Below, one piece after another: positions 9,688 to 15,778 of a stretch of DNA of 64,000 nucleotides. Every line of letters begins with the position of its first letter. The first letter of the stretch is position 1. The notes under the pieces were generated by a model, which worked only from the letters and a program-made list of their open reading frames with translations, searched no databases and was not told the DNA's origin. The translations under genes were made by a program, and so were the position numbers. The DNA comes from Frigoribacterium sp. PhB116 (GTDB lineage: Bacteria; Actinomycetota; Actinomycetes; Actinomycetales; Microbacteriaceae): NCBI RefSeq assembly GCF_004364285.1, contig NZ_SOBE01000001.1, forward strand, positions 496,001 to 560,000. Reading direction: 5' to 3'.

Positions 9688-11784
<2,097 letters not shown>

Positions 11785-12002
11785 GGTGTTCTCCTGACGC
11801 GAGGCAGAGCCGGCCGGCGGGAATTCCGGAGGCGGGGGTCTCGTTCCATCCTACGAGCGCCCACGGACAGTCCCGGGAGGCGCTCACCCCCCTCCGTCAC
11901 TACGCGATGAGCGAAATCGGCTCGGATCGCACCCGATACCCGGGAGCGCGTGTTTTGATGAGGTCTTCACATCCGCAGCACCACCGTCAGGAGGAGCATC
12001 AC

Positions 12003-12230
12003 ATGACTCAGATGGCCACCGACCACACCGCCGTCGACGAGCTCGGCTCCCGCTACCAGCTCTCCGCCGCCGACCGTTGCGACAGCTGCGGGGCCCAGGC
12101 CTATGTCCGCGTGACCATGGCGAGCGGCGAGCTGTTGTTCTGCGCGCACCACGGTGCCAAGGTCAAGGACAAGCTCCAGCCCACCGCAGTCGAGTGGCTG
12201 GACGAGAGCTCCAAGCTCCACGAGCACTGA
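12003..12230 (+). CDS. DUF7455 family small cysteine-containing protein
   Basis: A 75-residue protein with CDSCG and a later CAHH pair (Cys and His spaced as in a small zinc-binding knuckle), the pattern LSAADRCDSCGAQAYVRV, and a hydrophilic tail. It matches a family that lies beside sigA and parE in many Actinobacteria. The ATG at 12003 has GGAGGAG 6-7 bases upstream. Function is unknown; the metal site is an inference from residue spacing. Confidence 0.85.
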   Translation: MTQMATDHTAVDELGSRYQLSAADRCDSCGAQAYVRVTMASGELLFCAHHGAKVKDKLQPTAVEWLDESSKLHEH

Positions 12231-12337: not shown

Positions 12338-13093
12338 TCACATGGCCTTGAACGACCGCTCGAGGTTCTCGCGGATGACGCGCTGCGACTGCTCGGCGTA
12401 CTCGTCGAGCTTCGCGTGCGCCTCCCCCGCGTGGTACGAGATGCTGCGACGCGTCAGCGCCGCGCGGAGCACCCGGTCGCTCAGCGCCGGGTTGAGGGGC
12501 AGCAACGGCCCCTTGAGCTGCGTGCCGAAGGAGGCGCCGCGCACGACGCCCTCGGCGCCGCCGGTCCCGTTGCCCCCGCCGTGCACCACACGGCCGAAGG
12601 CCTCGACGCCGGTGCCGAGCTCGAGGTGTGCGGCGTGGTCCTCGAAGCCGAAGAGGGTCAGCTCGTCCCCGCCGTAGGTCGTCGTCACCTGGAAGTAGTT
12701 CGTCCGGCGCGGGGCGCCGCGACGGACCGTGGCGTCGAAGAACCCGATGCCGGTGACGGTCTCGCCCTGCTCGGTGACGACGCCCCTGGTCAGCAGCTCC
12801 ATGCCGCCGCCGACCCCGATCACGGGGACGCCCGACGCGGCGAAGCCCTCGAGGGCCGGGACGAGGCGCTGGGCGTCGGCGCTCACCGAGCGGACCCCCG
12901 AGAGCGGGCCGTGCCCGAGGAGGACGACGTCGGCCACGGTGGGCACGTCGTCGCCGACCCGGTACTCCACGACCTCGGTCTCGAGGCCGGCGCGCCGCGC
13001 ACGGGCCACCAGCGTCGTGACGTTTCCCCGGTCGCCGCTGACCCCGAGCTGCTCGGGGTAGAGGTGGACGAGGCGGAGGGTGTCGGCGCTCAC
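12338..13093 (-). CDS. gatD: GatD-like glutamine amidotransferase subunit lacking catalytic Cys and His
   Basis: GatD normally hydrolyses glutamine and passes ammonia to MurT, which amidates the alpha-carboxyl of D-Glu in lipid II. The 251-residue protein has the class I GATase fold and family landmarks (LVHLYPEQLGVSGDRGN at the start; GPLLPLNPALSD near residue 196). The nucleophile motif, normally CGG, reads VIGVGGGMEL with Gly95 in place of Cys. The His motif, normally LHGP, reads LKGP with Lys194. The usual GGGQD-type loop reads GHGPL. No cysteine occurs anywhere. The frame is intact and the GTG start overlaps the murT stop by 4 bases. Glutaminase activity should be absent; see findings. 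Confidence 0.88.
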   Translation of the reverse strand: MSADTLRLVHLYPEQLGVSGDRGNVTTLVARARRAGLETEVVEYRVGDDVPTVADVVLLGHGPLSGVRSVSADAQRLVPALEGFAASGVPVIGVGGGMELLTRGVVTEQGETVTGIGFFDATVRRGAPRRTNYFQVTTTYGGDELTLFGFEDHAAHLELGTGVEAFGRVVHGGGNGTGGAEGVVRGASFGTQLKGPLLPLNPALSDRVLRAALTRRSISYHAGEAHAKLDEYAEQSQRVIRENLERSFKAM

Positions 13094-14349
13094 GCGGTCT
13101 TCTCCAGGTCGGGGTGGCCGAGGATGCGACGGGCCAGCATCATCTGCTCGTAGTTGGTCACGAAGTGCTTCGTGTGGTCGCGGGGCGAGGGCAGCGCGCG
13201 CATCAGCTTTATCGCCTTCGCGATGTCCTCCTCGATCACGTGCACGGGGATGCCCTCGTGCTCGAGGCGCAGGGCGAGCTGCCAGGCCTTGGCGCCCGCC
13301 AGCACGTCGACGTGGTCGAGGCGCGAGAAGTCGATGTCGTAGATCCACGAGATGTCGGGCGTGCCCTCGTCGATCGCGAGCATGACCTGCTCGGCGCCCT
13401 GCGGCAGTGCGTCGAGGTTCAGCTGCAGGCTGGCCGCGTTCTTGAACATGATGAACTCGGCCTCGTCGGCGCCGAGCGACATGCGCTCGCCCCGACCGTA
13501 GGCCGGCTTCATCGTGTCGAAGGCACGAGCCACCGCCTCCTGGTCGACGGGCTCGCCGAGCACGACCGACGCGGTCTGCAGGGCCGCCGCCGCGTCGACG
13601 GCGTAGTGCAGCCCGCGGGCGGGGAGCCGCACGTCGACGGTGGTCTCGCCGACCCGGATGCTCGCGCGGTCGCCGTCCATCGCGACGACCTCGGCCTCGA
13701 CGGGACGGGTGGAGTCCGCCTCGCGGGAGAAGTCGTTCGCGTTCTGCAGCCCGTTGGGCGCGGCAGCGACGACGTCGGGGGCGGCGCCGAAGCGCGTGAC
13801 CGTCTGACCGGGCTTCGCTTCGTAGGGGGCGAGGTGCTGGTCGTCGCGGTTCGTCACGACGGCGCGCGTGGCCAGGGCCGCGGTGTCCGTCATCATCGTG
13901 CCGACGCGCTCGGTCTCGAAGAAGCGGTAGAGCTGGTCGACCTGCACGTTGAGCATGAGCACGGTCGACGGGTGCAGCGATCGGGTCAGCTCGACCGCGA
14001 AGGCCTCGTCGACCTCGATCACGCCGATGTCGTGCTTCACGCGGCCGAACGGCGTCACCTCGCGGAGGAACGCCGAGGCGATGCCCTGCGGGAGGTTGGC
14101 GCCGGTGGGGTTCGTGAAGACGCGGAGGCCGTTGGCCCGGAGCGTCTCGGTCAGCATCATCGTGGTCGTCGACTTGCCGTTCGAGCCGAGGACGAAGACG
14201 ACGCCCTGCTCGAACTGCGACGAGACGTGGGTGAGGAAGTCGGGCGCCAGCGCGAGGACTGTGCGGCCCGGGTAGGCCGAGCCGCCGCCGCGGAGGCGGG
14301 CGACCGCACGGACGAGCCGGCCCGCCAGGACGGGCACGAGGTATCGCAC
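13090..14349 (-). CDS. murT: MurT-like Mur ligase without the Cys4 zinc ribbon
   Basis: A 419-residue Mur-ligase-fold protein: P-loop GSNGKSTTT (residues 55-63), the central-domain acidic motif EVDEAF (112-117), LNVQVDQLYRF (133-143) in place of the usual LNIFRDQLDRY, and the C-terminal DISWIYDIDF (332-341) with the Asp that matches the family catalytic Asp. Classical MurT has four zinc-binding cysteines in the central domain; the matching stretch (about 170-210) has none and the protein has no cysteine at all. It follows sigA by 4 bases and overlaps gatD by 4, so sigA-murT-gatD is one transcription unit. It probably acts on D-Glu of a peptidoglycan precursor, but the amine donor may differ from ammonia. 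Confidence 0.88.
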   Translation of the reverse strand: MRYLVPVLAGRLVRAVARLRGGGSAYPGRTVLALAPDFLTHVSSQFEQGVVFVLGSNGKSTTTMMLTETLRANGLRVFTNPTGANLPQGIASAFLREVTPFGRVKHDIGVIEVDEAFAVELTRSLHPSTVLMLNVQVDQLYRFFETERVGTMMTDTAALATRAVVTNRDDQHLAPYEAKPGQTVTRFGAAPDVVAAAPNGLQNANDFSREADSTRPVEAEVVAMDGDRASIRVGETTVDVRLPARGLHYAVDAAAALQTASVVLGEPVDQEAVARAFDTMKPAYGRGERMSLGADEAEFIMFKNAASLQLNLDALPQGAEQVMLAIDEGTPDISWIYDIDFSRLDHVDVLAGAKAWQLALRLEHEGIPVHVIEEDIAKAIKLMRALPSPRDHTKHFVTNYEQMMLARRILGHPDLEKTA

Positions 14350-14353
14350 GGGC

Positions 14354-15637
<1,284 letters not shown>

Positions 15638-15778
15638 GCGAACACCTTCCACTTCATCTGCACTGGGTCTTTCGGGCAGTACTAGGACCCATGTCAAGTC
15701 CCCATGGCTGAGCGCGCCGACGAGAGTCGAGCACCTGCACGGGACATGAACGGGTCCGACTCCGATTATTGCACGTCT

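Follow-up and report, generated by a model that had tools for sequence, protein, structure and literature searches.

A MurT-GatD pair encoded directly behind sigA in Frigoribacterium sp. PhB116, a member of the Microbacteriaceae, appears to have kept its ligase half and lost its ammonia-making half, and we propose that it probably couples an amino acid instead of ammonia to the α-carboxyl of D-Glu as the first step of B-type bridge formation. B-type cross-linking is a hallmark of the Microbacteriaceae, and in peptidoglycan of this type the bridge starts at the D-Glu α-carboxyl and not at the third residue. The pair lies in a stretch of 64,000 nucleotides (contig NZ_SOBE01000001.1, positions 496,001 to 560,000; hereafter the window), and pairs of its type are called class C. 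The proposal is built on sequence comparison: an intact ligase site, a dead glutaminase, the conserved pairing of the two genes, and a chromosomal slot that also accommodates other amide ligases, racemases, and a few transaminases. No assigned ligase for the B-type cross-link was found in our searches of the open-licence PMC literature.

The products of murT and gatD comprise 419 and 251 amino acids, respectively, and both are full length and devoid of cysteine. The sequence GTGA at 13090-13093 is common to the murT stop and the gatD start, giving a 4-base overlap, and the sigA stop (14354) is separated from the murT start by four bases (14350-14353). This arrangement, the cysteine-free MurT, and the replacement of the catalytic Cys and His of GatD by Gly95 and Lys194 had been pointed out in a sequence-only reading of the window and are confirmed by the codons and by alignment with PDB structures. 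Both MurT_C (E 4.8e-10) and Mur_ligase_M (E 1.1e-5) were detected in MurT above the Pfam cut-offs, as was GATase_3 (E 5.6e-14) in GatD, so that a MurT_C and Mur ligase domain protein stands in one operon with a GATase_3 partner. The NCBIfam equivalog cut-offs for isoglutaminyl synthase were not reached, MurT scoring 102 of 800 bits and GatD 77 of 450. AlphaFold2 models were built from 12-row alignments. The GatD model (pLDDT 89) has a TM score of 0.87 to S. aureus GatD (6gs2), and the first PDB matches of the MurT model (pLDDT 87) are MurT chains (best TM 0.67), followed by pseudomurein ligases and MurF. Both folds are kept in the models. A search of the whole window genome found no second MurT, the single MurT_C hit being the window gene, and no second full-length GatD, the GATase_3 matches being the near-full one in the window and four partial ones (two above the cut-off). 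The canonical second copy that would have spoken against a repurposed pair was thus not encountered in these searches; because our whole-genome searches were limited to scoring 14, 9, or 6 candidates in each genome, misses are possible.

The residue survey covered 114 rows from the family, 89 of them class C, and 105 from outside it. Duplicates were dropped by MurT core, reducing 247 rows to 219, with one class A genome (classes are defined below) still counted twice (12 rows, 11 genomes). The residue counts exclude 9 unreadable and 1 misaligned GatD from outside the family and 1 of class C that is truncated at a contig end. The roles of MurT-GatD residues are taken from passages of PMC6085368; unless the window is named, residue numbers are those of S. 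pneumoniae, mapped by this analysis.

The catalytic Cys107 occurs in none of the 88 readable class C GatDs, whereas both Cys and His are present in 94 of the 95 readable GatDs outside the Microbacteriaceae; the exception is L387, from a class-D-like branch. By this contrast the loss of Cys is not a matter of chance, and, with the nucleophile gone in every relative read, GatD of class C is predicted to make no ammonia. A Cys-to-Gly replacement at the catalytic site of S. aureus GatD abolished lipid II amidation (PMC6085368), and according to passages of PMC5871853, the R128A, C94A, and H189A variants have no glutaminase activity. The ammonia-channel plug Tyr30 shows the same distribution as Cys (0/88 in class C, 94/95 outside the family). 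The catalytic His206 is kept in 55 of the 88 class C GatDs and its loss is lineage-specific. The expectation that relatives would share the window's substitutions therefore holds throughout for Cys (88 losses in 88) and only in part for His. Of the 88, 84 keep the glutamine-capturing Arg142, as would suit a GatD that still holds an amino acid, a role the sequence-only reading had raised as a possibility.

The ligase side presents the opposite picture. Residues K59, N85, E110, D112, E113, D136, R140, and R304 are present in all 89 class C MurTs, as is the set characteristic of Mur-type ligases, which in window numbers comprises K59, N85, E112, D114, E115, and R286. The Asp that S. aureus MurT contributes to the catalytic triad was found in 88 of the 89, the remaining sequence being cut by a contig end. 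The gate Arg135, on the other hand, is absent from all 89, vs 105 of 105 MurTs outside the family that carry it. Judged by these residues, the whole clade has an intact ligase half and has lost the half that makes ammonia, together with its gate; this extends to all of class C what had been suggested for the window pair. Loss of the Cys4 zinc ribbon, which had been counted as a further mark of repurposing, is discarded, because Cys/His-canonical pairs of the same order also lack it: the ribbon region is without cysteine in all 11 class A pairs, whose Cys and His are intact, and in 45 of the 105 pairs outside the family. The zinc finger is confined to a subset of species (passages of PMC6113224).

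MurT relatives were sorted in 120 family genomes representing 78 genera. Class C was found in 78 genomes (76 read, with G035 and G102 classed by score only). Class A, with Cys and His intact, no ribbon, and no sigA in the fetched stretch, was found in 11 genomes, 3 of which also have class C. Class B (Cys and His intact, with Cys4) occurs in 3 genomes, class D (a Cys4 MurT after sigA, with a GatD lacking both Cys and His) in 7, and class E in 2; G005 has one odd pair, and 21 genomes gave no MurT match at the 1e-15 limit. Of the 89 distinct MurT sequences of class C, 88 have sigA in the fetched stretch, and a place after sigA is common to classes C and D. No class C member was found among the 105 distinct MurT sequences from outside the family. 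A tree of 109 sequences, 40 of them class C, was inferred from MurT plus GatD (LG+G4+F, 1000 ultrafast bootstraps, midpoint-rooted). The class C sequences are united in a monophyletic group (support 100) that falls with canonical Cys/His-intact ribbonless pairs of the order, and another clade (support 100) comprises class D, L387, and class E. Under the midpoint rooting, Cys was therefore lost at least twice.

Members of the second Cys-less lineage (L016-L022, L025, L387, L395) also occur elsewhere in the phylum, and its class D keeps the Cys4 ribbon; L395 is assigned by MurT only and L025 stands outside the tree. In the phylum, 158 genomes had a match and part of them were read (30 automatic loci, four already in the set, plus 20 more). 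On the Leifsonia shinshuensis plasmid NZ_CP043642.1 (L402:7905-10854), a canonical MurT-GatD pair with Cys and His lies next to a gene for an M15 VanY-like peptidase, so class A can be accessory in the Microbacteriaceae.

The interval between sigA and parE has other occupants in the family. A CofE-like PF01996 amide ligase fills the position after sigA in 15 family genomes without MurT. With two class E genomes included, it was found in 17 of 120, none of them among the 78 class C genomes (hypergeometric p 1.3e-9, uncorrected for relatedness). Two kinds of occupant were found within each of nine genera: class C or CofE-like in g7, g9, g53, g73, and g78, class C or D in g34, g38, and g44, and class D or CofE-like in g54. 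CofE is coenzyme F420-0:L-glutamate ligase, an amide ligase that adds an amino acid to a carboxylate. The resemblance to the present system is one of position, with no kinship to MurT evident in the sequences; three slot proteins were scanned and reached 31-35 bits, the CofE equivalog cut-off being 181. An ATP-grasp protein (PF14397, E 1e-25) is encoded in 18 of the 120 genomes, 13 with a CofE-like ligase, 4 with class D, and 1 with class C (G016). A single scan with a PAC2-like neighbour gene yielded 80 further loci, 75 of which are titled Microbacterium. In this Microbacterium set the CofE-like gene is present in 72 loci (69 with ATP-grasp) and class C in 7, including M. aoyamense and M. ulmi, none with ATP-grasp; the remaining locus is a short contig without sigA. 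Two records titled Planococcus sp. APC 4015 (L234) and Stenotrophomonas maltophilia P13 (L303) hold Microbacterium-like sequence and are probably mislabelled or contaminated. In L225-L228 (G045, G017, G047, and G003), the sigA-parE interval matched none of the ligase queries. In the table of full intervals, 26 loci without both borders were omitted, and the window and its copy L149 are both included, as are L214 and its copy L286. Outside the family, the one CofE-like relative that was read is an 898-amino-acid fusion (L408:1914-4610, forward strand), which combines an AsnB-like part (PF00733, PF13537) with a CofE-like C-terminus. AsnB-like amidotransferases usually have Cys2; the fusion begins M-S-G, so its AsnB-like part is without this residue.

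Genes that could supply a bridge amino acid are found in the same interval. The racemase is a two-gene split pair of the alanine racemase family (Ala_racemase_N and Ala_racemase_C) and lies beside 18 of 57 class C loci in the family sample and, in the Microbacterium set, beside 39 of 72 CofE-like and 5 of 7 class C loci; these counts are lower bounds, many stretches stopping short of parE. A further Ala_racemase_C hit lies elsewhere in 8 of 9 checked genomes that have the pair at the locus, so the locus pair looks dedicated in most. The genome with no further hit is G013 (L145), a 0.93-Mb family genome that retains both its class C pair and the racemase pair. No racemase gene accompanies the locus in the window genome, which has three Ala_racemase_C hits, two in tandem and one checked for both domains; at L411:2349-4627, a glmS-like gene is followed downstream by two tandem alanine-racemase-family genes. 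A diaminobutyrate (Dab) transaminase gene separates sigA from murT in Microbacterium sp. RU33B (L242, class C), ending 8 bases ahead of the murT start, and such a gene is also present within the sigA-parE interval of G018 and G053, both of the CofE-like type. These transaminases match the ectoine enzyme model as well.

Passages of the literature allow a comparison with wall composition. Dab is the diamino acid of some Microbacterium (PMC10757982), and Rhodoluna lacicola has B2beta peptidoglycan with Dab (PMC4156110). D-Orn is given for M. testaceum, M. hydrothermale, and M. radiodurans and L-Lys for M. enclense and M. arborescens (PMC10757982), and Orn for M. schleiferi and Lys for M. saccharophilum (PMC10978784). 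Three records named M. testaceum and that of M. hydrothermale (Orn) have a locus racemase, and those of M. arborescens and M. saccharophilum (Lys) have none; in M. enclense (Lys), none was found in the 8 kb read behind the CofE-like gene, an interval that is not bordered. Only some of these records are type strains, that of M. schleiferi being FXH-192. The presence of the racemase is thus suggestive of the published diamino acid, with M. radiodurans and M. schleiferi as exceptions, and as a perfect D-Orn marker it fails on these two. We also considered the type of slot ligase, class C or CofE-like, as a Lys/Orn switch in Microbacterium and rejected it, since the CofE-like type occurs with both.

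In the proposed reaction, the acceptor would be the α-carboxyl of D-Glu, as suggested by the descent of the pair and by B-type chemistry, and the incoming nucleophile would be an amino acid. GatD would stay as a structural partner that may use Arg129 to bind the incoming amino acid by its carboxylate. Where ATP-grasp is absent, as in the window, the bridge diamino acid itself is probably what is attached. Judging from gene content, the CofE-like ligase or the second Cys-less MurT-GatD class would perform the D-Glu step in other genomes, often accompanied by a dedicated racemase and by an ATP-grasp ligase that would add a second residue. Microbacterium bridges begin with Gly, followed by Orn or Lys. 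Such Gly-first bridges would fit two ligases, CofE-like plus ATP-grasp, and single D-diamino-acid bridges would fit class C alone. On balance, and with less assurance than for the pair itself, we favor a view of the sigA-parE interval as a B-type bridge locus, in which an α-carboxyl ligase would have been recruited at least 3 times (two MurT-GatD inactivations and a displacement by CofE-like), with ATP-grasp, racemase, and transaminase as optional members and GatD now serving as an amino-acid-binding subunit.

Several observations weigh against assigning the bridge reaction to class C. Class C is not in every family genome, as a universal B-type bridge ligase would be: it is missing from 42 of 120, which comprise 17 with CofE-like, 7 with class D, and 18 with no candidate ligase. 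Among these 18, 8 have class A only, 3 class B only, 1 an L025-type pair, and 6 no MurT, and the sigA slot was read in 15; if they are B-type, another enzyme must exist. In G050, G060, and G113, class C stands together with an intact class A pair. The CofE-like ligase, which we had considered as family-specific, has relatives in 16 of 198 order genomes outside the family, in frames of 809-1016 amino acids, so it is not a B-type marker. The window slot itself contains no racemase, transaminase, or ATP-grasp, and the Dab transaminase was found in the interval of only 3 genomes among 412 sequences. Two of the Orn species have no locus racemase, and the CofE-like type of Microbacterium is found with Lys as well as Orn. 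The sequence-only reading, which had seen here a candidate for the unassigned ligase of B-type bridge formation, gains from the exchange of class C for CofE-like or class D in the slot and from the racemase, ATP-grasp, and transaminase neighbors; it does not stand for the family as a whole, and the class C pair would not be the sole such ligase of the Microbacteriaceae.

It is also conceivable, although we regard it as unlikely, that the pair attaches an amino acid or some other substituent at a different carboxyl, such as that of the third residue or of the bridge diamino acid, or one in a different polymer of the envelope. The acceptor is not readable from the sequence, and the family genomes without class C would be in keeping with such a role. 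Against it, class C nests within the clade of canonical Cys/His-intact pairs, and all 89 class C MurTs conserve the acidic pair and Asn85, the residue that contacts the acceptor carboxylate.

Less probable still is that MurT continues to amidate the D-Glu α-carboxyl with free ammonium and that GatD is a mere scaffold. All mapped ligase residues are kept in class C, and passages of PMC6085368 state that S. aureus MurT-GatD takes ammonia directly at pH 8.5 with GatD still required, a requirement that could explain why a dead GatD is retained. However, the gate Arg and the plug Tyr, which belong to the ammonia route, are gone in every class C sequence read. Amidation would also block the carboxyl that bears the bridge in B-type peptidoglycan, and the CofE-like ligase that takes the place of the pair in other genomes has characterised relatives that add glutamate and not ammonia. 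Racemase genes are often found in this slot, and a Dab transaminase gene sometimes. Decay of GatD into a remnant, with MurT left as a regulator or an almost inactive enzyme, might be suggested by the loss of Cys and partly of His but is highly improbable, because the pair is not decaying by its dN/dS of 0.10-0.14 in both genes against two same-genus genomes (L029 and L040), indicative of purifying selection (0.33-0.57 against two other-genus genomes, L026 and L027), because gatD adjoins murT in every class C locus read, bar one cut by a contig end, and because the pair is retained even in the 0.93-Mb genome.

As a proposed amino acid ligase, the class C pair can be set beside several known systems. 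With the MurT-GatD isoglutaminyl synthase (S. aureus 6GS2/6H5E, S. pneumoniae 6FQB) it shares gene order, folds, and ATP and acceptor residues, including the triad Asp of MurT and the glutamine-capturing Arg. It differs in lacking the catalytic Cys, plug Tyr, and gate Arg and in falling far below the equivalog cut-offs; it also lacks the Cys4 ribbon, as do canonical pairs of the order. MurC, MurD, MurE, and MurF and the archaeal pseudomurein peptide ligases have the Mur-ligase fold and the chemistry proposed here, in which an acyl phosphate would be attacked by the amine of an amino acid. MurT is without their full N-terminal domain (passages of PMC6113224), and the class C protein has a GatD partner and, as proposed, the D-Glu α-carboxyl as acceptor. 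The class A pair, which groups with class C in the tree, differs in retaining the full catalytic set in all 11 family genomes, as do the canonical pairs read outside the family, and in having no sigA in the fetched stretch of its loci.

The borders of the slot and the positions of the residues discussed are listed in the table. The small conserved open reading frame on the right border, which we take to be DUF7455, sits between sigA and murT in locus L102.

Table. Coordinates of the genes and codons of the class C locus in the window and of transaminase genes in related intervals (the latter numbered within their own loci).
Feature	Position	Strand	Basis or remark
sigA, housekeeping sigma factor, left border of slot	14354..15697	-	window open reading frame
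murT (class C), Mur-ligase-fold amide ligase without Cys4 ribbon	13090..14349	-	Pfam and AlphaFold2 model
gatD (class C), glutaminase fold without catalytic Cys/His	12338..13093	-	Pfam and AlphaFold2 model
Small conserved open reading frame, right border of slot	11907..12230	+	adjacent to parE at many related loci
parE/gyrB-like gene, outer right border	9688..11709	-	named by eye; conserved neighbor in related loci
MurT Lys59, P-loop lysine, retained	14173..14175	-	89/89 class C
MurT Asn85, acceptor-carboxylate contact, retained	14095..14097	-	89/89 class C
MurT Glu112 to Glu115, Mg/ATP acidic residues, retained	14005..14016	-	Glu112, Asp114, Glu115 in 89/89 class C
MurT Val137, site of gate Arg (S. 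pneumoniae Arg135)	13939..13941	-	mapping by this analysis
GatD Ser19, site of ammonia-channel plug Tyr (S. pneumoniae Tyr30)	13037..13039	-	mapping by this analysis
GatD Gly95, site of catalytic Cys (S. aureus Cys94, S. pneumoniae Cys107)	12809..12811	-	codon GGC; PDB alignment
GatD Arg129, glutamine-capturing Arg (S. aureus R128), retained	12707..12709	-	residue survey
GatD Lys194, site of catalytic His (S. aureus His189)	12512..12514	-	codon AAG; PDB alignment
Diaminobutyrate transaminase in sigA-parE interval	L242:12619-13902	+	above TIGR02407 equivalog cut-off
Diaminobutyrate transaminase in sigA-parE interval	L172:2909-4165	+	above TIGR02407 equivalog cut-off
Diaminobutyrate transaminase in sigA-parE interval	L222:3905-5182	-	above TIGR02407 equivalog cut-off

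If the proposal is true, the Microbacteriaceae would possess a small gene set for the B-type bridging step that is amenable to reconstitution, and the class C pair may represent a case of an amidotransferase turned into an amino acid ligase by losing its ammonia source.

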